From Aquimarina sp. BL5 (lineage in GTDB: Bacteria > Bacteroidota > Bacteroidia > Flavobacteriales > Flavobacteriaceae), in assembly GCF_003443675.1 (NCBI RefSeq), contig NZ_CP031963.1:5430501-5494500 (forward strand): DNA of 64,000 nt, given 5' to 3'. The notes beneath the pieces were generated by a model. It ran no database searches. It was not told where the DNA came from and saw only the letters and a program-made list of their open reading frames with translations. How positions within the stretch are numbered: position 1 is the first letter of the stretch; each line of letters opens with the position of its first letter. Both the position numbers and the translations under genes were made by a program. Shown one piece after another: positions 3,616-17,536 of the stretch.

Positions 3616-4914
3616 TTATTTATCCAACAAGCTTCTAAATTGATAAAAGAATCTTTCTATAAGCCTTAGATTTTCTGTAATAATCTCTACAGAGCCTCTC
3701 ATTTCTTGTTGAAAAGGTATTTCTTTATTGTATGTCGTAATCAGTTTTTTAGGTAGTTTTACATCTATAAGATATAGCCCATCTTTATCCGGTAACATTG
3801 ATATATAATCTACAGTACCTTGTAGCATACCAAATTCATTGTCAGGAAAGTTTTCCAATTTAATATTAGCTTTTTGCCCAATTTTTATTTTTCCCGAATT
3901 CTGGGTTGGGGCCTTTATTTTAGCAACGTAAGAAGAAGATTCTTGTATTGGGATTACTATAAAAACAATATCACCGGCAGTTACATTTTCATTTTCAAAA
4001 CGATAATTAGAAAAAGAAACTCTTCCTTCTATATCTGATTGTAGCAGATATCTTAATTCCCAATCTTTTATACTTTTTTTCAATTGATCAAAGGACTGAA
4101 TCACTTTGTTACGTAAGCTTATTTCTTCTCTTTGCTGATTAAATTCAGTTCCTTTTGATGTTTTCTGTGCATTACTAATACTCTCCTTAATCTGAGAAAG
4201 TTGTGTGTCATAGTTTTTATAATTATTCTCAAACTGCAAATATTCAATTTTTGCTTGTTCATATTCTTGTTGAGAAATACTACCCTTATCATATAACTCT
4301 TGCTGTCTTGCAAAATCCTTTTTCTTAAAGTTTAATGCACTTCCTTCAATTTTTTTCTGACTTAAAATTCCTTCTTGCCTTCTGTAGAGTTCCGATAAAG
4401 ATATCTGATTAGCTATGTTTTCATCAGAAAAGGGTTTTAACTCTCTATTTAAAGTGTATTCTATGTAACTATTCTCAAAAGTAGCGTAACTTGTTTGGAT
4501 ATCTCCCAGTTCTAAAATTGGGGGCATTTGGTTAAACGGAAATTCAATACTACGGTTATTAATGGTGATAGTGTCAACCACTCTTTTAAGGCTAAAGACA
4601 TCAAGATAGTTTGCTGTATTTCGAAGAATTGCTAAAGGAGTTCCTTCTGGAACAGTATCTCCTTCTTTTACTAAAATTGCTTCTATCTTCTCACTAACAT
4701 TTGCCTGTTCTTTTTGCAAAGGTACATCTGTTGTTATGATTGCCTGCGCAGGAATTGTATCCGGATATTTAAGCATCCAGGAAAGAAACAATAATAAAAG
4801 TATTAGTCCTAATATCAATAGGTTACCCCATCGGATCATCCAATGCGGTACGCGTGTAAGAATTTCCTGAACCTCTTCACTTCTTAATTGTATGTCGTCT
4901 AAATTATCTGGCAT
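3616..4914 (-). CDS. HlyD-family membrane fusion protein of the peptide exporter
   Basis: A 432-residue periplasmic adaptor. A short cytoplasmic N-terminus is followed by one transmembrane helix (about 31-50). Next come a biotinyl-lipoyl-like half (around VSEKIEAILVKEGDTVPEG), a long coiled-coil hairpin (about 160-280), and a second lipoyl/beta-barrel half ending near residue 410. This is the HlyD/CvaA layout that joins a C39 ABC exporter to an outer-membrane channel. It is the last gene of the minus-strand peptide cluster, 76 bases after the exporter gene. No TolC-like channel gene is in the window, so a shared one elsewhere is presumed. Confidence 0.88.
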   Translation of the reverse strand: MPDNLDDIQLRSEEVQEILTRVPHWMIRWGNLLILGLILLLLFLSWMLKYPDTIPAQAIITTDVPLQKEQANVSEKIEAILVKEGDTVPEGTPLAILRNTANYLDVFSLKRVVDTITINNRSIEFPFNQMPPILELGDIQTSYATFENSYIEYTLNRELKPFSDENIANQISLSELYRRQEGILSQKKIEGSALNFKKKDFARQQELYDKGSISQQEYEQAKIEYLQFENNYKNYDTQLSQIKESISNAQKTSKGTEFNQQREEISLRNKVIQSFDQLKKSIKDWELRYLLQSDIEGRVSFSNYRFENENVTAGDIVFIVIPIQESSSYVAKIKAPTQNSGKIKIGQKANIKLENFPDNEFGMLQGTVDYISMLPDKDGLYLIDVKLPKKLITTYNKEIPFQQEMRGSVEIITENLRLIERFFYQFRSLLDK

Positions 4915-4990: not shown

Positions 4991-7195
4991 CTACTTTCCG
5001 AGTTCTAATTGATTTTTAACCAAATTATAATAACTTCCTTTTTCTTTGATCAGCGATTCGTGATTTCCAACTTCTATGATTTCACCTTTATCCAATACCA
5101 CAATTTGATCGGCATTTTTTACAGTACTTAATCTATGCGCTATCACCATAACGGTTTTGTCCTTGAAGAAGGTGTCTAATTTTTCCATAATTACCTTTTC
5201 ATTGTTAGCATCCAAGGCTGAGGTTGCTTCATCAAAAAATAAGAATTTAGGATTTTTATATACCGCACGAGCAATAAACAATCGTTGTTTTTGACCTGTA
5301 CTAAGTCCTACACCTTCCATTCCTATTTTTGTATTATAAGATAAAGGTAGTGACTCTACAAACTCTTTAATGTTCGCCACATCGACTGCGTGTGCTAATT
5401 TTTTCTTATCAACATAATCTTCTCCTACTGCAATGTTATTAGCTATGGTGTCATTAAAGATATATCCTTCTTGCATAACTACTCCAAACTGATCTCTCCA
5501 AGCCTTTTGTGATACATTCTGTAAATCATGAGAACCAATGAATATTTGTCCTTCATCAGGTTCATAGAACTTCAATAAGAGTTTCATAAGGGTAGTTTTT
5601 CCACTACCACTAACACCAACAACTGCTGTGATTTTGTTTGCAGGAATTAATAAGTCCAAATTTTGTAGCACGGGCTTATCTGATCCTACATACCTAAAAC
5701 TAAGCTTTTTGATATCAAAACCAGAATTTTCTGGGATATCCTTAAGCTTTTCATCACCTGTTTTTTCTTCGTCTTCTTTATTATGAATCTCTCCTAGACG
5801 TTCTAATGAGATTTGCGCATCTTGCAATTCTCTTAGAAAATTAATCAATTGTGTTATAGGAGCATTTAGTTGTCCTACAATAGATGTAATAGCCAACATC
5901 ATACCTAATGTGATTTCTCCATCAATAACGAGTACCGCAGAGAGAACAGTGATCAGTATGTTTTTTAGTTCATTAATAAAAGCAGAGCCAACACTTTGAT
6001 ATTGCTCCAAAGCAAGGTTTTCTATCGATATTTTAAAGAGTTTAGCTTGCACAAACTCCCAATTCCAACGTTTTCTTTTTTCTGCGTTATGGAGCTTAAT
6101 TTCTTGCATACCATTAACCAACTCAATAACTTTACTTTGTTCTTCGCTGATCTGAGAGAAACGCTTATAATCAAGCTTTTTACGTTTTTTGAAGAATATT
6201 AAAATCCAGGCAAAGTAGAAAGCACTACCAACGGCAAAAACCGTAAATATGGAGAAGCTGTAGTAGATAAGGACAATGCTAAACACAATTAAGTTTACCA
6301 TGGAAAACAACACATTTAGTGAAGACATGGTGAGTATCTGCTCTATTCTTTTATGATCATTGATTCGTTGTAATAAATCTCCAGTCATTTTTACATCAAA
6401 GTAGGAGATAGGTAGGTTCATTAACTTGATAAAAAAATCTGAAATCAAGGAGATGTTAATTCTGGTACTTAAATGTAATAAAATCCAGCTTCTTAAAACA
6501 TCAATTAATGTTCGTCCTACAAACAATGATAGCTGTGCAATTAATACTAGATATACAAAATCAATATCTTCGTTTTCTATACCTACATCAACAATACTTT
6601 GGGTTAGGAATGGTGTAATAAGCTGTAACAAACTACCAGCTGTTAAACCTAGTATAAGTTGAAAGATGAATTTTTTGTATTTAAATACGTACTTAGAGAT
6701 AAATTTAAACCCAAATTCTTCATCTTTTTCATCCAAATTGTCATTATAGAACTTTGGAGTAGGTTCTACCAATAATGCAACTCCCTCTTCAGTAGTTTGA
6801 TCGGCATTGTTACCGATCCAAGCTTTTATAAATTCTTCTTTAGTGTAGGTGATCAAACCATGGGCGGGATCAGATACATAGATCGTCATGCCACCTTTTC
6901 TGGTGTTCTTAATTTTATAAACTACGACATAATGTACTTTGTTCCAATGAACAATACAAGGTAGTGGAACTTCTAATAATTGATTTAAAGATAGTTTTAC
7001 ACCCAGCGATCTGAATCCAATACTTTCTACAGCTTCGCTTAGGCCAAGTAAAGAACTCCCTTCTCGGGTGGTTTCACTTAGAGATCTAAGCTTCTGCGTA
7101 TTCAGTACTTTCCCGTAATGTTTAGCTATGATTTTAATACAAGTGGGTCCGCAATCTTTGGATTCAGCTTGTTTATAAAAAGGAAATTTTGGCAT
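4991..7195 (-). CDS. C39 peptidase-containing ABC exporter (PCAT)
   Basis: A 734-residue inner-membrane exporter that should cut double-glycine leaders and export the released peptide. The N-terminal C39 papain-like peptidase keeps the catalytic residues: Cys15 (SKDCGPTC), His88 (KVHYVVVY) and Asp109 (VSDPAHG). A six-helix ABC membrane domain (about 170-450) and a nucleotide-binding domain follow. The latter has Walker A GVSGSGKTT, signature LSTGQKQR and Walker B FLFFDEATSALD. Its natural substrates are the two GG-leader peptides encoded at 10147-10368 and 12234-12467. It starts 8 bases after the VKOR-fusion gene, which suggests coupled translation. Confidence 0.95.
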   Translation of the reverse strand: MPKFPFYKQAESKDCGPTCIKIIAKHYGKVLNTQKLRSLSETTREGSSLLGLSEAVESIGFRSLGVKLSLNQLLEVPLPCIVHWNKVHYVVVYKIKNTRKGGMTIYVSDPAHGLITYTKEEFIKAWIGNNADQTTEEGVALLVEPTPKFYNDNLDEKDEEFGFKFISKYVFKYKKFIFQLILGLTAGSLLQLITPFLTQSIVDVGIENEDIDFVYLVLIAQLSLFVGRTLIDVLRSWILLHLSTRINISLISDFFIKLMNLPISYFDVKMTGDLLQRINDHKRIEQILTMSSLNVLFSMVNLIVFSIVLIYYSFSIFTVFAVGSAFYFAWILIFFKKRKKLDYKRFSQISEEQSKVIELVNGMQEIKLHNAEKRKRWNWEFVQAKLFKISIENLALEQYQSVGSAFINELKNILITVLSAVLVIDGEITLGMMLAITSIVGQLNAPITQLINFLRELQDAQISLERLGEIHNKEDEEKTGDEKLKDIPENSGFDIKKLSFRYVGSDKPVLQNLDLLIPANKITAVVGVSGSGKTTLMKLLLKFYEPDEGQIFIGSHDLQNVSQKAWRDQFGVVMQEGYIFNDTIANNIAVGEDYVDKKKLAHAVDVANIKEFVESLPLSYNTKIGMEGVGLSTGQKQRLFIARAVYKNPKFLFFDEATSALDANNEKVIMEKLDTFFKDKTVMVIAHRLSTVKNADQIVVLDKGEIIEVGNHESLIKEKGSYYNLVKNQLELGK

Positions 7196-7203
7196 TCAGA
7201 GTT

Positions 7204-8793
7204 TTAATTTTGTGTAATAAGATCTTCTACAAAGAAAAGTAATTCTTTTCTATTATACGCATTAGGATAAGATTTCCCGTTTAATAATATCTCAGGAGTA
7301 AAATTTTTATCATAATTTACGCACCATTGATGCTGTTTTTTAAGTAAGTTTAGGTAATTGTCATTACTGAAATCTCCATACATTTTTAGCCAATCACTAG
7401 GTGTGCTAGACGAGTAAATCTTGCTCATAGCAAGTTCACATTTTTCTTCTCCTTCATCGTTAAACAATTCGGTAAGACGCGCAGCTATTTTTGTGCTTTG
7501 ATTCTCTGGATGAATGTTCGGTATATTAAAACGCACAATGACTTGCACTTCTTTTCTATAATTTTTCAATATGTTATCAATTAATACGTGTACTTCTTTA
7601 CAATGACCGCATAAAGGATTTGTGATTACTGTAATTGATAGTTCCGGTTTTTCAGTTTTATTACCAAGAATTATTTCTTTTTTATCTAATGATTTAATTG
7701 GTAGTATTTGAGATTCAGAAAGTAGCGTGTCAAAAAGAGTATAATTTCGTTTAAACTTAAAATGTTCTATTTTTAATTTTCTGGATGTTATCTCGTTTTT
7801 TAGTAATGGTAATACATAAGACCAAGCGGTTGATATTAACAAAAAACATATTAAAACAGTACCAAAAGAATAACTATTAAATTTTAGTTCTTTTATGTCA
7901 AAATTCGCAAAATATATCGTTATTGCCTGCAACCATAAAATAAGGACAATACTTATACATAATAAACACCAGTTTTTTACAATTTTGTATTGATAAAAAA
8001 TGGAATAAATTGTAAATGGTATTGCGCTAATAGAAATTAGATATATAAGGTCAATACTACTATTATTTAGTAATGTTAGTAAAGAAGATATAAGTAGGGT
8101 GCTAAAATATACTATAGAAACATCACTAAGTTTTAATTTATTAAACAAAGTAGCTCCTTTAGAATTTAAGACAGCGTTGCAATCGATGCTTTTTTGCTCC
8201 TTATTACAGAATTTATCAATTACGGTGGATTGTATACCAAGTTCCTTTGATACTATTAATGCGCTAAATAGTAGGCCGAAAAATGACATCGAATAATGTA
8301 TAAAAGTTGTCAATTCGGGTTTTAATAGAAGAAATGATCCTAGTAAAACGAATACTAAAAAAAAGTTTACTGTAGTGCGATATTTAGTCTTTTTGAGAGA
8401 GGTATTGGTTTCACTATTTTCATTGTGTTCAATAATGAGTACAACGCCAGTCCAGATTTTTAGAAATTCTTCTACAGAAAGTATTTGAGTATACTCTCTA
8501 CTAAAAATGAGATTGATTGTATCTTTTTTCTTGATGAAAAGAACAAAATGCTCACCGGTTTCATTTCTAATTTGGATTAGAGTATAGGAGTCTAATTGGG
8601 AATATGTTTCATTATCTGTAGGAACCTTGGCTGCAATGTTTTCTATAGCAAAATGATCGAGAACCCCAGTAATTGAATGAAGACTAGGGTAGGTGGGATG
8701 ACTTAATAGTTGAAATTTAACCTCTTCTTCATCTATAGCAATTTTGTTCTTTTTTAGGAGTTTGTACAGTAAGTATATAACAGAATCTTTCAT
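7204..8793 (-). CDS. C39-like / VKOR / thioredoxin-like fusion protein (disulfide formation)
   Basis: A 529-residue fusion. Residues 1-125 resemble a C39 peptidase domain that has lost the catalytic cysteine (no DCG motif), so it probably binds leaders without cutting. Residues 140-335 form a vitamin-K-epoxide-reductase-like membrane domain with cysteine pairs Cys196/Cys205 and Cys276-x2-Cys279. Residues 385-525 are a DsbA/thioredoxin-like domain with active site Cys395-Gly-His-Cys398. Such proteins reoxidise a periplasmic thiol oxidase with quinone. Its place between the precursor/enzyme pairs and the exporter suggests it makes disulfides in the exported four-cysteine peptides. The domain calls are firm; the client assignment is inference. 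Confidence 0.85.
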   Translation of the reverse strand: MKDSVIYLLYKLLKKNKIAIDEEEVKFQLLSHPTYPSLHSITGVLDHFAIENIAAKVPTDNETYSQLDSYTLIQIRNETGEHFVLFIKKKDTINLIFSREYTQILSVEEFLKIWTGVVLIIEHNENSETNTSLKKTKYRTTVNFFLVFVLLGSFLLLKPELTTFIHYSMSFFGLLFSALIVSKELGIQSTVIDKFCNKEQKSIDCNAVLNSKGATLFNKLKLSDVSIVYFSTLLISSLLTLLNNSSIDLIYLISISAIPFTIYSIFYQYKIVKNWCLLCISIVLILWLQAITIYFANFDIKELKFNSYSFGTVLICFLLISTAWSYVLPLLKNEITSRKLKIEHFKFKRNYTLFDTLLSESQILPIKSLDKKEIILGNKTEKPELSITVITNPLCGHCKEVHVLIDNILKNYRKEVQVIVRFNIPNIHPENQSTKIAARLTELFNDEGEEKCELAMSKIYSSSTPSDWLKMYGDFSNDNYLNLLKKQHQWCVNYDKNFTPEILLNGKSYPNAYNRKELLFFVEDLITQN

Positions 8794-8843
8794 TAAACGA
8801 ATTAATTATAATAGTATTGGTTGTGAAATTTAGTTAAGTGTTG

Positions 8844-10127
8844 TTATACAAATTCAGACAATAGAATTTCATTATACATACATCGATCCATAACCAGAGA
8901 AAATAATCGTTCTTCTAGCTGTTTTTTATCCATTTGAGAAGATATAGATTCATCAGCGTATGCTTCAGACGCTGCATCTTTGATCGTATTCTCTTCTTCG
9001 AAGTAGAAAAGGAAAAAGTCCCAATCTTCCACTTTTATGGAGGTGTTTTTTAAATCTTGAGGAGATTTGTAATATAGTACTACATCGTTATTTTCATCTT
9101 CTTTGCAGATAATATTATTATTTATGATAAACTTAGTGTTCATTTTTTCATCCCAAGAAGTATTTTTTAACCAATCGAAGTGCTTTTCCAGATAGCAGAA
9201 ACGTTTTTCATTAATACTTTTGTATTCATTATCAAATAACCCGTTCCTTTTTAAGGATTCGGTTAGTTTATGAAACTCATCTGGAAATTCATACCGAAGT
9301 CTTGCTTCGATTTGTTCTTGGGTTACTGGTGATTTCTTACCGTGTCCTACGGTATGAATATAATATTCTTTTTCTGGGATAAGCTGAAACCTCATTACTT
9401 TAGAAAAAGAAGCATTCATTTCATTATAAAGAGCATTGGTACTTAGATTATTTTTTATAGCTAGATTCATTCCTAGCATTTGCTCATAAATCATATTAAA
9501 AATACCGAGATCTATTTTATCCAAATTCGACCGATTATCATCGATAAATGAGAAGACTATTTTTGCTAGCTCTTTAAAGAAAGAAGTATTGTTCCCTCCA
9601 ATTACCCCTGCGTTAAATGCATTGATGTTTCCATTTTTTAGATATTCTTTACTCAAGGTGTCTGGTACATTTACAAATTCACGTAATATCACATCCAATA
9701 CCTCCTTGTACCTTGGGAAATTAAACTCCAAATTCTGAAAACAAATATCTTTGCTAATAAATGATTCAGGAAAGCGGTTCCATATAAACACATCGGTATC
9801 GACATGAAGAAAGGGTTGATTCTGCAGCGAATACGATAAAACCTTACCTAATGCCCATAGGCCAGCCGGATAATGATGTAAGCGTTCTAACTCCGTATTA
9901 ACTGATGTATATGGGATTTGTAGTTTTTCTTTCAATAATTCATTTCCATAGTCATCAGTATACATGACTACATTTCCATATTGTTTTTTAAAAGTCAAAC
10001 AGCTTAATAGTGCGCTATAAAAAAACAGGTTGGTACTGGACCAACCCGCCTTAAATCTAGCACTTTCGTCATAATTTTGTTCCAAAAAAGGTTTAGACCA
10101 AAAACTTTGAATGATTTTTATGCTCAT
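8844..10127 (-). CDS. GT8-like glycosyltransferase candidate with C-terminal RRE-like region (enzyme A)
   Basis: 427 residues, cytoplasmic, with no signal peptide or membrane helix. Motifs recall GT-A/GT8 enzymes: a DxD in LHVDTDVFIW (Asp110/Asp112), FNAGVIGG (172-178) and a late HxxGxxK (His258-Gly261-Lys264), the usual third metal/phosphate site. It may belong to the family catalogued as DUF6734, but I cannot confirm that. Residues about 330-425 have the layout of a PqqD-type RiPP recognition element: paired strands, then helices around EDWDFFLFYFEEENTIKDAA and a last helix ERLFSLVMDRCMYNEILL. It starts 19 bases after the precursor A gene. The proposed role is glycosylation of that precursor; the sugar is unknown. 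It is a paralogue of the product of 10862-12139. Confidence 0.6.
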   Translation of the reverse strand: MSIKIIQSFWSKPFLEQNYDESARFKAGWSSTNLFFYSALLSCLTFKKQYGNVVMYTDDYGNELLKEKLQIPYTSVNTELERLHHYPAGLWALGKVLSYSLQNQPFLHVDTDVFIWNRFPESFISKDICFQNLEFNFPRYKEVLDVILREFVNVPDTLSKEYLKNGNINAFNAGVIGGNNTSFFKELAKIVFSFIDDNRSNLDKIDLGIFNMIYEQMLGMNLAIKNNLSTNALYNEMNASFSKVMRFQLIPEKEYYIHTVGHGKKSPVTQEQIEARLRYEFPDEFHKLTESLKRNGLFDNEYKSINEKRFCYLEKHFDWLKNTSWDEKMNTKFIINNNIICKEDENNDVVLYYKSPQDLKNTSIKVEDWDFFLFYFEEENTIKDAASEAYADESISSQMDKKQLEERLFSLVMDRCMYNEILLSEFV

Positions 10128-10146
10128 AAATGTCTAAAATATTGAC

Positions 10147-10368
10147 TTAATAAGAAAGACACTTTCCAGATCTTCCTCCACCAATTGATCCCATATAAGC
10201 AGGAGCAAAGTCACAAGTCAAGTCTGTTAAAGGATACCATCCGTGTACACATCGAGGTAAATTACAAGTAGGAAGTTCATATCCTCCATATCCTCCAGAA
10301 ATAGTTTTACTTTCTTCTTTACTCAACAGTTGGGCATCTTTAATCCTGTTTAAAAAATCTTTTTTCAT
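10147..10368 (-). CDS. Double-glycine leader peptide precursor A
   Basis: A 73-residue precursor. The leader (1-26) has the Bacteroidota GG-leader form LLSKEESKTISGG, with cleavage expected after Gly26. A second GG at 28-29 is a less likely site. The 47-residue core is rich in Gly, Tyr and Pro and has four cysteines at 35, 40, 52 and 70. Positions 35 and 40 match precursor B exactly. There are Ser and Thr residues (34, 48, 51, 61, 67, 72) that could carry a sugar. It is followed after 19 bases by its cognate enzyme gene. Function (bacteriocin, signal or other) cannot be told from sequence. Confidence 0.85.
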   Translation of the reverse strand: MKKDFLNRIKDAQLLSKEESKTISGGYGGYELPTCNLPRCVHGWYPLTDLTCDFAPAYMGSIGGGRSGKCLSY

Positions 10369-10861
10369 TTTGATAAATTTTAATTGTTCACCTACTCATT
10401 AGCTTTTCGGTTTCCGCTTTTTGTTTGATGAGAAGTCATAATTTTCAGACATTAACTCTCAATCGGTCTGCGGTTGCGCAACCTAAAGATTTATTATTCG
10501 AATTAATTTGCATTTGCAACTACAAACCAAATTGAATAACAAATGATTATTATTTAATTTTATTCATAAAATATTACGGATTGTGCTGTAATTGTTTTAT
10601 AAAAACTGGGATTTTTTCTGTTTGTTATTTGAAATTATGAGAAAAATATAAGAATGACTTGCTTTTTTTATGGCATCACCTCACTATTACGTTTTCGTGT
10701 TGATAAATTTTGGTTTATAATAGATTCAATTCACAAAATTTTAACAAATAAGACTCGTTTTTCTGTGCTGAACGATTTGGTCTCACCAATTAATATTTTA
10801 GGATTTTTAAACAGTTTTATAATAGATGTATTGCGGAGTTTTTATAAGGTAAAGAGCTTTA
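10369..10861. other. 493-bp gene-free stretch upstream of precursor A
   Basis: It lies between the end of the enzyme B gene and the start of precursor A, both on the minus strand, so it probably holds a separate promoter for precursor A. I see no clear TAnnTTTG box. A perfect 12-bp palindrome, GGTTGCGCAACC (10472-10483), sits in an unusually GC-rich patch about 110 bases upstream of the precursor A start. The 86-codon plus-strand frame at 10654-10914 overlaps the end of enzyme B, has no recognisable product and is taken as chance. Confidence 0.6.
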
Positions 10862-12139
10862 TTAATGGGTGCTTATGGGCTGTAGGATTTCTAATAACAT
10901 TGTTTTGTCCATAACAAAAGAAATAAGTTTGTCTTTCAATGTTTCCTTATTAGTGTTTTTAAGAAAAGTTTCATCTTCAGACAAGCCTTCATAAAGCTGA
11001 TTGATAGTTGTAGGTTCTTCAAAGTATAACAAGATGATGTTCCAATCTTTAAGTTCTTGTCGTTGAAAATTCTTGGTTTGCGGTATTATATGTTCTAAAA
11101 AGTAAGAGTCGTTTTCTTCAATTATTTTACATAAAGGATTCAGTTTAAAAGTTGTATTACTAATATCATCTACTGACTTATTAGACACCCAATCATAGAG
11201 GTTAAATAGAAAATCCATTCTTTCAGGAGTTATATCACTCTGAAATGAGTTTTCGTCAAAGTACTTAGCGAGTCTATTATTAAGTTTATCGTAAAATTCT
11301 GGGAAATGATATTTTAATCTTGCTTCAACTTGTTCACAAGCGAAAAATGATTTTTTAGCATATCCAATACAATGTACATATTGAGATTGAAAAGGAACTG
11401 TATGAAAATTAATAACTTTGGAGAAATCGGAATCAACATTTTCTAAATAATAAGACACGGGGATATTGTTTTTTTCGGCTATAGCAAACGCTAATTGCTG
11501 TTCAAATATAGTATTGAAAATCCCTATATCTATTTTATAAAGTAGGTGGTCATTTTTTTCTATGAACTCAAGGACTTGTTCTTTTAGTTTTTTAAAAAAA
11601 TGAGTTTCTTGCCCTCCAATTATTCCTGCATTGAGGGCGTGTATTCCTTTATTTTTATACAGTGAATTAATTAGTTCTGTTGGGATCCAATCAAAATTGA
11701 TAAAAACATCATTGAGTGCTTCCTCATACGCTGGAAAATTTATTTCAGCATTTTGAGCAAATAGGGGAGAAGTAGTAAGAAGTTCAGGTAATTTTTTCCA
11801 AATAAACACATCAGAATCACAATGTATAAAAGGTTCGTTCTGTTCGGCATATGTAAATATTTTTCCTAAAGCCCATAGTTTAGAATTGTATTTATCTATT
11901 TGATCAAGAGTTATGTGTACATTGGTATATGGAATATTTAAAATATCTATTAACAAATGTTTGCCGTCTGCATCGGTATATAACTCTACTTGGTCATAAA
12001 ATTGTTTAAAAGTAAGACAACTTAGAGCTTGACTATAAAAGGCATGTTTTTGATGTAGCCATCCACCTTTATATCTTGAGTTAGGATCTTCAGATTTATT
12101 ATTACTTGGTTTTGACCAGAAACTTTGTATTACCTTCAT
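10862..12139 (-). CDS. GT8-like glycosyltransferase candidate with C-terminal RRE-like region (enzyme B)
   Basis: 425 residues, a paralogue of the product of 8844-10127 along its whole length. It keeps DxD (Asp108-Ser-Asp110 in IHCDSDVFIW), LNAGIIGG (169-176) and HCIGYAKK (His256, Gly259, Lys262), plus the N-terminal VIQSFWSKP segment. The C-terminal ~95 residues again show the PqqD/RRE-like order of strands and helices (LKDWNIILLYFEEPTTINQL, then KLISFVMDKTMLLEIL). It is preceded by precursor B with a hairpin between the two genes. The proposed role is modification of precursor B. Catalysis and sugar donor are inferred only from motifs. Confidence 0.6.
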   Translation of the reverse strand: MKVIQSFWSKPSNNKSEDPNSRYKGGWLHQKHAFYSQALSCLTFKQFYDQVELYTDADGKHLLIDILNIPYTNVHITLDQIDKYNSKLWALGKIFTYAEQNEPFIHCDSDVFIWKKLPELLTTSPLFAQNAEINFPAYEEALNDVFINFDWIPTELINSLYKNKGIHALNAGIIGGQETHFFKKLKEQVLEFIEKNDHLLYKIDIGIFNTIFEQQLAFAIAEKNNIPVSYYLENVDSDFSKVINFHTVPFQSQYVHCIGYAKKSFFACEQVEARLKYHFPEFYDKLNNRLAKYFDENSFQSDITPERMDFLFNLYDWVSNKSVDDISNTTFKLNPLCKIIEENDSYFLEHIIPQTKNFQRQELKDWNIILLYFEEPTTINQLYEGLSEDETFLKNTNKETLKDKLISFVMDKTMLLEILQPISTH

Positions 12140-12180
12140 TTTTTTATTTTCTTACTGATGCTTGTGCGTTTTTATTTTTA

Positions 12181-12213
12181 AAAAACTAAAGACCCTTCAA
12201 CAGAAGAGCCTTT
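12181..12213 (-). terminator. Attenuating hairpin between precursor B and enzyme B
   Basis: Read on the minus strand, AAAGGCTCTTC-TGTT-GAAGGGTCTTT pairs over 11 positions (two G-U pairs in RNA) and is followed by AGTTTTT. It lies 21 bases after the precursor B stop, so part of the transcripts should end here. That would give more precursor than enzyme, a common arrangement in peptide clusters. Confidence 0.6.
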
Positions 12214-12233
12214 GTTTTTTTGATACATTTTAA

Positions 12234-12467
12234 TTATCCCCAACAGTATAAAGACGGATTTGGTCTGTACACATAAAGACTCCAGCTTCCATTAGATGTA
12301 GGACAACCAGGTTTGGAGGCGCGTCCAGCTTTATTTTGATCACCTCCACAGATGATAAATGAACAATTTCCTGCACCAAAAGATCCGTCATATCCTCCTA
12401 CAATAGTTTTAGTTTCTTTCTTAGAAAGAACTGACGCTTTGATTTTTTGCAAAATGTCTTTTCTCAT
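12234..12467 (-). CDS. Double-glycine leader peptide precursor B
   Basis: A 77-residue precursor. The leader 1-25 ends VLSKKETKTIVGG, the same leader type as precursor A, with cleavage expected after Gly25. The 52-residue core is rich in Gly, Ser, Asn and Pro and has cysteines at 35, 40, 55 and 75. The first two positions equal those of precursor A although the surrounding core sequence differs, so the cysteine frame is what is conserved. It is the first gene of a precursor/enzyme pair. Several Ser and Thr residues between Cys40 and Cys75 could carry a modification. Biological activity is unknown. Confidence 0.85.
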   Translation of the reverse strand: MRKDILQKIKASVLSKKETKTIVGGYDGSFGAGNCSFIICGGDQNKAGRASKPGCPTSNGSWSLYVYRPNPSLYCWG

Positions 12468-12551
12468 AATTACATTGTTTTAAATTAATAATGATTTGTA
12501 TAGTATACTATTACTCTATAATACGATTAAACCGTAATATGTTATATGGGG

Positions 12552-12594
12552 AAATATCACTTAAACGTTGTAGTGTTGATAATAAATATCACTT
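12552..12594. promoter_or_regulatory. Direct repeats and palindrome upstream of precursor B
   Basis: Two exact copies of AAATATCACTT start 32 bases apart (12552-12562 and 12584-12594), about three helical turns. Overlapping them is an interrupted palindrome, CACTTAAACGTTGTAGTG (12558-12575; arms CACT-nn-AAC / GTT-nn-AGTG). The site lies about 85-125 bases upstream of the precursor B start codon. This suggests a regulator binding in register, but no regulator gene is recognisable in the cluster. Confidence 0.4.
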
Positions 12595-12613
12595 TATGAT
12601 TTTTTTAAGAAAA

Positions 12614-13261
12614 TTACAGTAGTTCTCTCGTCCAATTGGTATTTTTTTTGATAACTCTAGCAGGAATTCCTCCTGCAATTGAATTATTAGGAATATTTTT
12701 TGTCACTATTGCCCCCATGCTTATGACACTATGATTCCCGATGTGAACACCTTTAAGAACTTTGACGTGTGCTCCAATCCATACGTGATCTCCAATGCTA
12801 ACGCTTTTTGCTTGATTAATCCTTTTGTTACTTTCCATATCAATTATGCTATGCGAATCGCTTGTGCGTATAGAAATGTTGTCAGAGAACATACAATCAT
12901 CTCCAATAATAATACTGTTATCATCTTCTGTAGCTGCTATATGAGCCCATTCAATAGTAGTTTTTGCTCCTATAATAATTTTGCAATTAGTATGTTCTAA
13001 CCAAAACATCCCTCCACTTATTCTACATTCTGATCCTATTTCTAAGTAATGATTGTCTCCTTGAATATTGATTACTATGTTCGAGATATTACAATCTTTT
13101 TTGATCAATACCTTATTGTTATTTCCATTTATGGTGATATTAAGATGAAATAAGTAATCACTTTGTTTTTCAATAATATTGTTATTTCCAACAATAAGAT
13201 CAGTTGGTGGAATAGGGTTGTGTGTTTTTTTATCGAATATTTTTTTGAAAGTTCTAATCAT
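12614..13261 (-). CDS. Left-handed beta-helix (hexapeptide-repeat) O-acyltransferase
   Basis: 215 residues of hexapeptide repeats such as IGDHVWIGAHVKVLKGVHIG, with the usual C-terminal GGIPARVI segment of the maltose/galactoside/capsule O-acetyltransferase group. His in the ADHSI-like stretch (SDSHSIID) may be the catalytic base. It has no signal peptide and is cytoplasmic. It lies 146 bases upstream of precursor B on the same strand and could acetylate a sugar attached to the peptides, or be an unrelated passenger. Acyl-CoA:sugar transfer is family knowledge; its part in the cluster is inference. Confidence 0.8.
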   Translation of the reverse strand: MIRTFKKIFDKKTHNPIPPTDLIVGNNNIIEKQSDYLFHLNITINGNNNKVLIKKDCNISNIVINIQGDNHYLEIGSECRISGGMFWLEHTNCKIIIGAKTTIEWAHIAATEDDNSIIIGDDCMFSDNISIRTSDSHSIIDMESNKRINQAKSVSIGDHVWIGAHVKVLKGVHIGNHSVISMGAIVTKNIPNNSIAGGIPARVIKKNTNWTRELL

Positions 13262-13403
13262 GTGATTAATAATATTGCGTTTTTGAGAGAGGAAATGCTT
13301 GATAGATACGTGTTTTTTTACAGAAAGATTTTTGGTCTATTATTAAGAAGAAATTCTTGAGTTGTAGTGTAATGTAATTTCTTCGATAGAATAGTTCAAA
13401 ATT

Positions 13404-13468: not shown

Positions 13469-16255
13469 TTAATTCAAACTAAGTTTAGTAGTGGCTATTC
13501 CTTTTTCGTTTTGGATTTGTACCAAGTACAATCCTCTGGATAATTCTCCAATGTCAAAACTTGTTCCTGGTTGGAAATCACCTTCGAATTTTTTGGCTAA
13601 TGCTCCTGTAATGGTGTATACAGATACTTTTTGTACCGATTCATTAATACTAAAAGCTGTTTGTGCTGGATTAGGATACGCATCAAAACTATTACCGTTA
13701 ATAAAATCCTGAACACCTAAAGTAACTGACTCCTGATTTCCAAAAACCTTAAATTCACCTGGTTGTAGTGTAATAAGAGCGTTTACATCTGTTACGGTAA
13801 TGGTCTCACCTGTTTCACTTAATAAATCATACCAAGTACCCGTTTCCTGGAAAGTTGGATTAATATCAATAGGCTCTACATCAAAGTTACCAATAATTGT
13901 AACATGTTTAAGCTCATCTCCAGTAGCTGAATCATCCGTTAGTTGAATTTTTTTAGATGTGGCAGAAGCAACAGATAATGTGAAATTATCGGTTTTAAAT
14001 ATCTTCTCATTCAACTTTAATCTAATTAATTTGGTATATGCATCATATATATCGGTTCTATCAGTAACATTTAGATAATCCCAACGAATAGGTTTGGGGT
14101 TAGTTCTACACGATTCGTCAATAGTACTATCCTCGCATCGATTGATACTAAAACCATAACCTAGTTCTCCAAATTGCCAGATCATTTTTGGACCTGGAAT
14201 AGTAAAATAAAAAGCTCCTGCAAGTTCTACTCTATCTAATGCGGTAGATAAATCTGTCACATCATACGTTGGTGCGTTGGTGTCATTACCAAACTGAACA
14301 TTTTTATACATTAATCGTTCTTCATCGTGACTTTCCATATAACTAATATTAGATGGAGTTGTCCAACCACGTGATAAATAGGATACTGATTGGAAATTAG
14401 AATCTCCATACCCCATAGTGGCCTGATTATAATTAAAGTTGCTATTTCCCCAAACGAGCATACCTTCATTTATTAATAAAGTTTCTTCAGTATTCGGAGC
14501 AAAATGTTCTAAAATTACATAAGCATTAGGATCTACTGCTTGTATAGCCGTATTCATTCTGGTTAATATATCAATACGACTCTGATCAAAACCGCCTCCA
14601 TCACCGATGGTATTTGTAAATCCTTTAGTAAAATCAAATCTAAATCCATCTACATTGTATTCGGTTAACCAATATTCATTCAATCTGTCCATGTAATCCT
14701 CTGTAGCTGTAGATTCGTGATCAATGTCATTAAAGAATGAAAAAGTTGGATTAGAATCAGTCTCTCTAAATATTGGATTTGCAGCAGTTGCTTGTCCATT
14801 GTAACAACCGTTACAATCATTCCACATTCTATAGTATGGATTTTGACCGGTAGCATGGTTGTATACCACATCTAGTATTACTGCGATTCCTCTGGCATGA
14901 CATTCGTCTACGAATTCTTTAAACGCAGTAGGAGTACCATAATATTTATCCAATGCCATATGGAAAGAAGGGTTGTAACCCCAACTATTGTTTCCATCAA
15001 ATTCTGAAACTGGCATTAATTCAATAGCATTAATACCTAAATCTTGTAAATAATCAAGTCTTGATTTTACCGCATCGAATGAATGTAATGCATCAAAATC
15101 ACGAATCAATAACTCATATATTACTAAGTCAGTAACTTCTGGTCTTTGGAAATTAGTCGTCTGCCATACATATTCAGCCTCACCGGTCTTAAACCAGGAT
15201 ACGGCATCATTGGTTTTACCATTTGGATAGCTAGGTAAATTAGGAAACGTAGTATCATCTATAAATCCATCATTAAACTCAGATAATATCAATGTAGAGT
15301 AGGGGTCAGCAACAGAGATAGAAGCATCTACTACATATTGATATAATATGTCTGCATTATTTGGTAAGTTATCTAATGTAATCCAGAATCGATCTTGAGC
15401 ACTATCTTTATTTAATAGATACGCATTATCAAGAGCCCAGTCATTACCATTAAAATTTCCTTTTACATGAACAAAGTTTTTTCCTGGTGCGTATAGTACT
15501 AAAGTAGCAGAAGTTCCATCTAAATTTAGTCCGTCTTTCATTCCTGCTGGAACAGGTGCTTCATTATTAACGGGAGTTGTAATGGCAGAGAAAGTCTCTG
15601 ATAATGAATTAGAAGTTCCTGATTCTGTTGCTACAAGTTCAAAACTTACACCTTCGGTAATAGTATAATTAGTAGTGTAGTTCGTTATTCCGGCTTGTGT
15701 ATCCACAGAAGCTCCGTTCGCAAAAAGTTCGAAGTCTGCATTTAAGGTTGTAGTTGCAGTAATTGTTAAGTCATTTCCACTATCAATGATGCTCACAGAT
15801 TCTGTAGGTGCATCTAAAGCGAGCTGAAAGATACCAACTTCGACTATATTATCTTGGGTTTTGTTATCTCCGGTACCATCCTGAGCTTTTGCTAACATCC
15901 CGATACGATCAATTCCCGTAGCACCATAAAAGATTGTGGGTGTTAGGGTGATAGAGTACGTGCCATTTCCATTGTCAGTAAAGATTTGTGGTTGAGCACT
16001 ATTCGATGAGTCTGTCCAATCTCCATTATTAGGGGAATTAATTGCAGCAGTAGTTGTTGGGCTATCAAAGTACCAAGCCCATAGATATAGGTCTGTTGTT
16101 CCCCAAACACTAAGGTCCACTCCAGATACTGTAATAGTGATTTCATCACCTTCGTTAAAGGCAGATGGTGTAATTGTGAAAGTTGCATTTTGTTGTTGCG
16201 CATTGGACATCATCAGTCCCAGAAAGAACACAAATACTAAAGTAAATTTTTTCAT
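13469..16255 (-). CDS. T9SS-secreted GH13 alpha-amylase with N-terminal accessory domains
   Basis: 928 residues. A signal peptide (1-19, MMSNAQ) is followed by two immunoglobulin-like modules (about 25-225) and a CBM48-like domain (about 235-350). The GH13 catalytic barrel spans about 375-750 and has GFRFDFTKGF (nucleophile about Asp541), VILEHF (acid/base Glu) and SHDEER (transition-state Asp). The last ~75 residues form a type A T9SS sorting domain with YPNP...GLYLVQI. It should be cell-surface bound or released and attack starch outside the cell, feeding SusCD. It is the last gene of the minus-strand sus operon, with a hairpin separating it from susE. Confidence 0.93.
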   Translation of the reverse strand: MKKFTLVFVFFLGLMMSNAQQQNATFTITPSAFNEGDEITITVSGVDLSVWGTTDLYLWAWYFDSPTTTAAINSPNNGDWTDSSNSAQPQIFTDNGNGTYSITLTPTIFYGATGIDRIGMLAKAQDGTGDNKTQDNIVEVGIFQLALDAPTESVSIIDSGNDLTITATTTLNADFELFANGASVDTQAGITNYTTNYTITEGVSFELVATESGTSNSLSETFSAITTPVNNEAPVPAGMKDGLNLDGTSATLVLYAPGKNFVHVKGNFNGNDWALDNAYLLNKDSAQDRFWITLDNLPNNADILYQYVVDASISVADPYSTLILSEFNDGFIDDTTFPNLPSYPNGKTNDAVSWFKTGEAEYVWQTTNFQRPEVTDLVIYELLIRDFDALHSFDAVKSRLDYLQDLGINAIELMPVSEFDGNNSWGYNPSFHMALDKYYGTPTAFKEFVDECHARGIAVILDVVYNHATGQNPYYRMWNDCNGCYNGQATAANPIFRETDSNPTFSFFNDIDHESTATEDYMDRLNEYWLTEYNVDGFRFDFTKGFTNTIGDGGGFDQSRIDILTRMNTAIQAVDPNAYVILEHFAPNTEETLLINEGMLVWGNSNFNYNQATMGYGDSNFQSVSYLSRGWTTPSNISYMESHDEERLMYKNVQFGNDTNAPTYDVTDLSTALDRVELAGAFYFTIPGPKMIWQFGELGYGFSINRCEDSTIDESCRTNPKPIRWDYLNVTDRTDIYDAYTKLIRLKLNEKIFKTDNFTLSVASATSKKIQLTDDSATGDELKHVTIIGNFDVEPIDINPTFQETGTWYDLLSETGETITVTDVNALITLQPGEFKVFGNQESVTLGVQDFINGNSFDAYPNPAQTAFSINESVQKVSVYTITGALAKKFEGDFQPGTSFDIGELSRGLYLVQIQNEKGIATTKLSLN

Positions 16256-16274
16256 GACGTTATGTATTTAAAGT

Positions 16275-16307
16275 AAAAGGGCTGTTATTAAATATAACAG
16301 CCCTTTT
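16275..16307 (-). terminator. Intercistronic hairpin between susE-like gene and amylase
   Basis: A perfect 14-bp stem (AAAAGGGCTGTTAT / ATAACAGCCCTTTT) has a 5-base loop. The run of T after it is short in either direction (four bases, part of the stem), so it may act as a partial terminator or an mRNA-stabilising 3' end. Confidence 0.65.
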
Positions 16308-16321
16308 GTATTTATTTTTGA

Positions 16322-17536
16322 TTATTGTAACTCTGCGGAATAAGAATATCCTCTTGGGTTACTTAAATCAAGAGTAACCAAATAAGTACCATCGGCATCA
16401 ACAGATAAATTAGGTCCGTTAAAGTCCATAGACCCATCATTTCCAGCATCTCCTCCTAAGTTTAATGCCCAATCATCATTTGCTCTAAACTTAAACTCTC
16501 CAGCACTAAGATTAATGGTAATTGTCCATACTTGCGTTGTTGCATCATATGTCATATCGTGATCGTTTCCAGGCACACCTTCGGTTCCTCCAGCTGGCCA
16601 TCCTAGTGGAGTAGCACCACCAACTAAGGCCCATTCTGAAGGTTCTATACTATATGTAATGTTAGCTGCATCAGTAAGATCAGCTTTTACTAAATAATAG
16701 CCAGCAACAGAACCTGCAGGTAACCCACAATCTACTCCACCTCCTTCAAGTAAAAGCTCAGAATAGGATCCATTACTAGCTCCAGCATCACCATAAGCTC
16801 CATCAAAACTAGTAGTGCTAGGTAAGAATTTATAATTAGCACCTGCATCATTAAAGAATACAAAACCTTCATATTGTGTATCTTCTTCATCTCTAGCCTG
16901 AATTGCCGGTGCATTTTCAGATGGAGTCCAGTTTGCACCATATCCACTTGCTTCTAAAAAGCTCCCAACTACATATAGTTTTGGAAATTCTATTTCTTCT
17001 ATTACTGGTTCTGGTAGCGAAACAACAACAGGCTGAATATCAGAAAGAATTTCTTGTCCTCCTTGAGATCCAACAGTAGCTCTTAATCTAACAAAAAGTT
17101 CTCCAGCATTATTAGGAATTGGCTCTCCATCAGCATCTAATACTGGGTCTCCGTTTTCATCTGTAGTAAATGTTTCAGGATCGTTATCTAATCCAGCCGA
17201 ATTAGCAAATTCAATCATTCTAGATACAGTAATAGGTAAGTTGTTTTCTTGTGTACTCCCTAAAACCTGAATGTCGTCAAAGGTAGAAGTGATAGAGCCT
17301 TGTAATTCATAAGTAACAGGTGTATCTACACCAAAGTCTGGAGATTCCCAAACAAACCTTTCTGCAAGATTACTAGCGGTTTCATCAGTTAATACATATT
17401 GAGAAGAAAATGTGTTAACAAAACTAACTCCTTCTGGATCAGGTTGTGCAGTGAATATTAATTGATCGTCGTCTGTACAAGCATTGAAACTGATTACAGT
17501 AACAAAAGCTAATAATAATATTGATATTTTTTTCAT
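16322..17536 (-). CDS. susE: SusE/SusF-like starch-binding outer-membrane lipoprotein
   Basis: 404 residues. A lipoprotein signal ends at FNAC (Cys20), followed by Asp-rich TDDD, a typical surface-export context in this phylum. An N-terminal SusE domain (about 30-170) is followed by two C-terminal carbohydrate-binding modules of the SusE/F type (around FPKLYVVGSF and EWALVGGATP). It helps hold maltooligosaccharides at the surface next to SusCD. It lies 39 bases after susD. The symbol is by position and family; sequence conservation in this family is low. Confidence 0.85.
   Translation of the reverse strand: MKKISILLLAFVTVISFNACTDDDQLIFTAQPDPEGVSFVNTFSSQYVLTDETASNLAERFVWESPDFGVDTPVTYELQGSITSTFDDIQVLGSTQENNLPITVSRMIEFANSAGLDNDPETFTTDENGDPVLDADGEPIPNNAGELFVRLRATVGSQGGQEILSDIQPVVVSLPEPVIEEIEFPKLYVVGSFLEASGYGANWTPSENAPAIQARDEEDTQYEGFVFFNDAGANYKFLPSTTSFDGAYGDAGASNGSYSELLLEGGGVDCGLPAGSVAGYYLVKADLTDAANITYSIEPSEWALVGGATPLGWPAGGTEGVPGNDHDMTYDATTQVWTITINLSAGEFKFRANDDWALNLGGDAGNDGSMDFNGPNLSVDADGTYLVTLDLSNPRGYSYSAELQ

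Follow-up and report, generated by a model that had tools for sequence, protein, structure and literature searches.

What is made by two short genes in the genome of Aquimarina sp. BL5, each encoding a peptide with a double-glycine (GG) leader and each directly followed by a large paralogous gene? The genes lie in the 64,000-nucleotide stretch that we analysed (contig NZ_CP031963.1, positions 5,430,501 to 5,494,500; hereafter the window, with coordinates counted from its first letter). Our analysis makes it probable that the cluster produces two exported cysteine-rich ribosomal peptides, each with its own leader-guided glycosyltransferase (GT) of the Pfam family DUF6734, in which a GT-A catalytic domain is joined to a domain resembling the recognition element (RRE) of ribosomally synthesised and post-translationally modified peptides. 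The central elements are the following open reading frames (ORFs) and domains.

12234..12467, minus strand: precursor 1, a 77-residue ORF with a 25-residue GG leader, MRKDILQKIKASVLSKKETKTIVGG (ending ETKTIVGG), and a 52-residue core with four Cys and Tyr as its first residue
10862..12139, minus strand: enzyme 1, a 425-residue ORF of DUF6734, 94 nt from precursor 1
Residues 1 to about 290 of enzyme 1: predicted GT-A catalytic domain
10865..11236, minus strand: RRE-like C-terminal domain of enzyme 1, residues 302-425
10147..10368, minus strand: precursor 2, a 73-residue ORF with a 26-residue GG leader, MKKDFLNRIKDAQLLSKEESKTISGG (ending ESKTISGG), and a 47-residue core with four Cys and Tyr first
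8844..10127, minus strand: enzyme 2, a 427-residue ORF of DUF6734, 19 nt from precursor 2

A preliminary description of this DNA had read these four genes as two precursor/enzyme pairs with GG leaders, and all four are present as ORFs. On the minus strand the order is precursor 1, enzyme 1, precursor 2, enzyme 2, a C39-VKOR-thioredoxin protein, a C39 ATP-binding cassette (ABC) exporter and a HlyD-like protein, with a hexapeptide-repeat acyltransferase gene upstream of precursor 1.

Are the large proteins glycosyltransferases? The two share 42% identity across 423 aligned columns and belong to DUF6734 (PF20508; E 8.5e-101 for enzyme 1 and 6.9e-91 for enzyme 2 in the Pfam scan; the two matches score 305 and 337.6 bits against a curated cut-off of 27 bits). 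No other DUF6734 gene was found in the 6.0-Mb genome, and Pfam and NCBIfam scans of seven cluster proteins pointed to these two as the only glycosyltransferase candidates. The motifs DxD, NAG and HxxGxxK characterise GT8 enzymes. Both proteins carry DxD, NAGxIGG and HxxGxxK in that order, as had been noticed earlier, and across 67 aligned homologues D108, D110, G172, G175, G176 and H256 (enzyme 1 numbering) are invariant, while N170 and K262 are conserved in at least 90%. The catalytic half of enzyme 1 is predicted to adopt a GT-A fold, with glycogenin as the closest solved fold at about 10% identity, and enzyme 2, judged by alignment, appears to have the same two-domain architecture. The likeness to GT8 that had been proposed holds for fold and motif order and does not extend to sequence. 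PF01501 (GT8) was absent among the Pfam matches of both enzymes up to E 1, and GT8 sequences from relatives were at best a weak profile match: comparison with three clear GT8 sequences gave P 0.32 (10 of 25 shuffles reached the score), and P was 0.017 (0 of 25) when two weak ones were added. Judged from the predicted fold and the motifs together, a DUF6734 protein is an enzyme that would work like a GT8 enzyme, though it is not filed as one.

How would such an enzyme find its peptide? The tail of enzyme 1 is predicted to form a winged-helix domain of the PqqD type, with strands (330-333, 338-342, 345-352, 357-362) preceding helices (365-374, 379-386, 390-393, 398-414) and a last strand at 419-421. 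The strand and helix order of an RRE, which had been noticed from the letters, is thus borne out by the predicted fold; the estimated length of about 95 residues was too small, the domain being nearer 124 residues. Because the window-type tail, when its profile was compared directly with that of PqqD, gave no significant match once trimmed and shuffled (13 of 150 and 6 of 100 shuffles attained the score), the RRE-like assignment rests on the fold and on a related, longer tail in homologues of about 550 residues, for which 0 of 100 shuffles attained the score (4 of the 19 rows, L038, L047, L077 and L078, were left out as window-type in appearance). Among PDB sequences no RRE was retrieved with the tail profile (best match not below E 0.07) or, up to E 10, with the whole-enzyme profile, and the matches of 31 tails in Pfam were scattered and weak, with none to PF05402. 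We infer from the modelled fold that the tail binds the leader, and the co-divergence of the two, considered below, fits this indirectly.

The association of enzyme and precursor could be followed beyond the window. A pattern scan around DxD over genome contigs gave 305 loci, the best 80 of which were analysed together with 15 further loci, two of them the window's own. They contain 103 DUF6734 ORFs (101 distinct proteins): 40 with the architecture seen in the window, 19 of about 550 residues, 41 without a tail and 3 others. A gene was counted as paired when a fixed pattern found a GG-leader ORF on the same strand at most 400 nt upstream. By script this held for 34 of the 40, 3 of the 19 and 2 of the 41; one match (L072) proved spurious on reading, which leaves 33 of the 40, this weeding by eye having been applied to the 40 only. 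Pairing exceeds chance, since a GG-leader ORF stood at the same distance upstream of only 5 of 256 control ORFs (at least 280 residues, in whichever frame, taken from the same loci at over 4 kb from DUF6734). The expected linkage of homologues to leader peptides is therefore found, and with it the usual setting of an RRE, a modifying enzyme encoded beside its precursor. Within 1.5 kb on either side the counts were 34/40, 12/19 and 11/41, against 25/256 controls. The 40 take in the window's own two genes and near-identical relatives; clustered at 90% identity they fall into 33 groups, and 26 of these contain a paired gene. The unpaired genes of this architecture are at L034, L045, L053, L056, L058, L072 and L093. 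Of the named loci, L016 (91% identical) is the nearest and comes from an uncultured Aquimarina isolate, and the family, not always in the window architecture, is present in 16 of 395 sampled Bacteroidota genomes.

Similar precursors precede similar enzymes in the relatives, and the co-variation leans towards one half of the enzyme. Across 31 non-redundant pairs, leader distances correlate with those of the C-terminal domain when the GT domain is controlled for (partial r 0.29, with a 95% bootstrap interval of 0.12 to 0.45) and hardly with those of the GT domain when the C-terminal domain is controlled for (0.09, -0.03 to 0.22); the leader tracks the C-terminal domain better in 92% of bootstraps, whereas the cores have no clear preference (partial r -0.02 and 0.12). 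This pattern fits reading of the leader by the tail. In the cores, a Tyr directly after GG is present in 31 of the 33 paired precursors, against 18 of 74 other GG ORFs of the same loci taken by pattern match alone, without weeding by eye. Cys is conserved at four columns, each in 29-32 of the 33, and no Ser or Thr column reaches 24. Three precursors (L023, L025 and L030, of which L023 and L025 are identical) are without both Cys 1 and Cys 3, and this joint absence suggests disulfide pairing 1-3 and 2-4.

Several observations weigh against the proposal of two leader-guided glycosyltransferases with their own peptides. The C-terminal domain was not preferred in 8% of bootstraps, and the two domains co-vary strongly with one another (rho 0.855). 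The ratio of precursors to enzymes is not always one to one in relatives: five (L016, L018, L035, L036 and L039) have more precursors than DUF6734 enzymes, and the second enzyme of L034 has no precursor next to it. These six loci rule out a strict rule of one enzyme per precursor, an arrangement noted earlier that is true of the window and not of some relatives. The matched specificity it had suggested keeps the partial support of the leader co-divergence and is weakened by the surplus precursors. Finally, all nine Tenacibaculum loci lack a relative of the exporter and of the VKOR-type protein within about 10 kb on each side.

The remaining architectures bear on how DUF6734 acquires its substrates. 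The tail of the 550-residue form is homologous to a separate protein of 205-237 residues encoded directly after several tail-less DUF6734 genes (E 1.8e-10 at L090, 1.8e-8 at L064, 9.2e-6 at L092), and partly to the C-terminal part of long partners of the LanC-like kind (1.1e-5 at L059, 1.1e-4 at L060, and 6.5e-8 at L044, a partner outside the Pfam scan). Six of the ten neighbours scanned after tail-less genes are LanC-like by Pfam (L040, L043, L050, L059, L060 and L065). Three homologues of about 650 residues (P0107, P0110 and P0111) have at their C-terminus a C39 domain that lacks CGPTC. Given the long tail, its separate homologous partner and the terminal C39 domain, it seems that leader-binding modules have been swapped on one catalytic domain. 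Some of the loci with a LanC-like neighbour also contain very long ORFs resembling non-ribosomal peptide synthetases (NRPSs), and DUF6734 may glycosylate non-ribosomal products too. At L034 of Flavobacterium silvaticum a GT2-like ORF of 279 residues (11262-12101) stands between two DUF6734 genes, which suggests a second sugar.

What would happen to the peptide after glycosylation is indicated by the other elements of the cluster.

7204..8793, minus strand: C39-like/VKOR/thioredoxin-like protein, the C39-like domain without the catalytic Cys
4991..7195, minus strand: ABC exporter with a C39 peptidase domain (PF03412, E 1.2e-32), ABC_membrane and ABC_tran, with CGPTC at residue 15
3616..4914, minus strand: HlyD-like membrane-fusion protein, named from sequence and position
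12614..13261, minus strand: hexapeptide-repeat acyltransferase (PF00132, E 3.1e-8)
12188..12213, minus strand: terminator-like hairpin (11 pairs and a T run) in the gap that separates precursor 1 from enzyme 1
10389..10420, minus strand: DUF805b RNA element (RF02914); the start codon of precursor 2 follows after about 20 nt

The first of these proteins matches PF03412 (E 2e-6) and VKOR (E 5e-14), with thioredoxin-like matches (E 0.0024 and 0.048) both under the curated cut-off; its first Cys is residue 196, and CxxC motifs occur at 276 and 395. It is likely the disulfide-forming enzyme for the four-Cys cores, and its degenerate C39 domain perhaps binds the leader. C39 ABC exporters generally cleave after GG and export. 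The leaders end in GG and the exporter has the catalytic Cys, so it presumably removes the leader and exports the product. Relatives found by BLAST with the window genes include an exporter in 19 and a VKOR-type protein in 15 of the 32 window-architecture loci outside the window's genome, and a HlyD-like relative in 17 of the 19 with the exporter. The pathway may accordingly be pictured in four steps: the RRE-like tail would grip the GG leader; the GT domain would glycosylate a side chain of the core with a nucleotide-sugar as donor, one acceptor candidate being the Tyr that directly follows GG; the VKOR-thioredoxin protein would form two disulfides, its C39 domain possibly holding the leader; and the exporter with its HlyD-like partner would cleave after GG and export. 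The acyltransferase, which has BLAST relatives in the related clusters L016 and L030, is a possible accessory modifier of sugar or peptide. At L016 (8287-9514) a third GG precursor precedes a hexapeptide acyltransferase gene; no such precursor was seen before that of the window. Four terminator-like sites were found in 8600-13400 against a mean of 1.6 in shuffles, and the hairpin after precursor 1 may raise expression of precursor over enzyme. Beyond the acyltransferase, minus-strand neighbours at 13469-17536 resemble, by their sequence, the beginning of a locus for starch/maltose utilisation (a secreted amylase-like protein and a lipoprotein).

Other explanations can be given for the same genes. 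If DUF6734 glycosylated a non-peptide target, such as a surface glycan or another metabolite, with the GG peptides coincidental or merely co-regulated, the tail-less homologues in NRPS-like and other loci and the GT2-like ORF of L034 would be readily understood. This is improbable, given the pairing of the tailed form with GG-leader ORFs, the RRE-like fold of the tail and the degenerate C39 domain that takes its place in three homologues. The enzymes might instead be leader-guided glycosyltransferases whose sugar is an intracellular carrier or a self-protection mark, later removed, so that the exported peptide may be unglycosylated. No dedicated immunity gene was recognised among the seven Pfam-scanned cluster proteins, in a scan without a search aimed at immunity, and self-protection is left to explain; the same scan recognised no sugar-removing enzyme, glycocins retain their sugar, and we consider such removal very improbable. 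The least probable alternative is that the protein serves only as a leader-binding chaperone or scaffold, its GT domain having lost or changed its catalytic activity. DUF6734 is indeed far from GT8 in sequence, and its catalysis is predicted from fold and motifs, but the residues expected to form the nucleotide-sugar site (DxD, N-x-G..GG, His and Lys) either do not vary among the 67 homologues or are conserved in at least 90% of them. We infer that the peptides are glycosylated.

The RNA element before precursor 2 (36.8 bits against a gathering score of 35.6) belongs to a wider set. The source genome has 17 RF02914 matches (L096-L112), 12 of them above the cut-off, and the next ORF, 16-32 nt away and in one case 80, has a GG leader in 9, is Sec- or lipoprotein-like in 5 and is of other kind in 3. 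At 28 loci of relatives (L143-L170, part of the matches there) the corresponding numbers are 7, 17 and 4. Six more ORFs look by eye as if they had GG-type leaders (L106, L151, L153, L160, L163 and L170), some with AG or GSG for GG. From these classes DUF805b seems to mark genes of exported products; the name was not found in the open-licence PubMed Central papers searched. GG-leader genes at L096-L098, L101 and L110 adjoin long ORFs reading like TPR-type regulators, possibly as peptide signalling systems.

If two leader-guided glycosyltransferases are indeed at work here, a functionless Pfam family would become a marker of sugar-decorated, disulfide-rich exported peptides in Bacteroidota. The glycosyltransferase would carry its own leader-reading domain, and therefore a leader swap could perhaps direct the sugar to other peptides; module exchange on one catalytic domain would be a natural experiment in acquiring substrate recognition. 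A more far-reaching proposal, which we regard as doubtful in its full form, is that DUF6734 marks a hitherto undescribed class of glycosylated ribosomal peptides of Bacteroidota, made by glycosyltransferases with a glycogenin-like fold that place sugar on tyrosine (the Tyr directly after GG, or else an aromatic residue that precedes the last Cys) and have exchanged leader-binding modules (the RRE tail, the longer tail resembling PqqD, a partner protein encoded separately, a dead C39 domain), some precursors sharing DUF805b as a 5'-UTR mark of genes for exported products.

Among known systems, glycogenin glucosylates its own tyrosine, and it and other GT8 enzymes share with DUF6734 the GT-A fold and the order of the motifs, and differ in the low identity and the lack of a PF01501 match. 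The RREs of TbiB1, ThcOx, TbtB, NisB/MibB and PqqD are likewise winged-helix domains with or beside a modifying enzyme, and the fold matches; unlike them, the domain here is C-terminal on a glycogenin-like GT and does not match PF05402. Glycocins also combine GG-leader Cys-rich peptides, a dedicated glycosyltransferase and a C39 exporter. Their glycosyltransferase is of the SunS type, to which the DUF6734 enzymes here do not belong, and the sugar sits on Ser, Thr or Cys of the core. Ten glycocins are known experimentally, from Bacillota, according to PMC9576775. Bacteroidetocins (PMC6671954) are peptides of Bacteroidota which, like those proposed here, are accompanied by a thiol oxidoreductase and by an ABC exporter of the GG-peptidase kind; they differ in that 'glycosyl' occurs 0 times in the text of that paper. 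The preliminary description knew of no system of this arrangement. This stands for the family, as neither 'DUF6734' nor 'PF20508' occurs in the open-licence PubMed Central papers searched (supplementary files and subscription journals lying outside this scope) and broader searches there for glycosyltransferases with an RRE or GG leader listed nothing on DUF6734. It does not stand for the principle: RRE-glycosyltransferase fusions are mentioned among possible new clusters in a passage of PMC7470986 that leaves the GT family unnamed (Fig. S7), and fusions with PF00535 in PMC12710340. The latter name PF00535 where the window has DUF6734, and both sets share with DUF6734 the union of an RRE and a glycosyltransferase in one protein.

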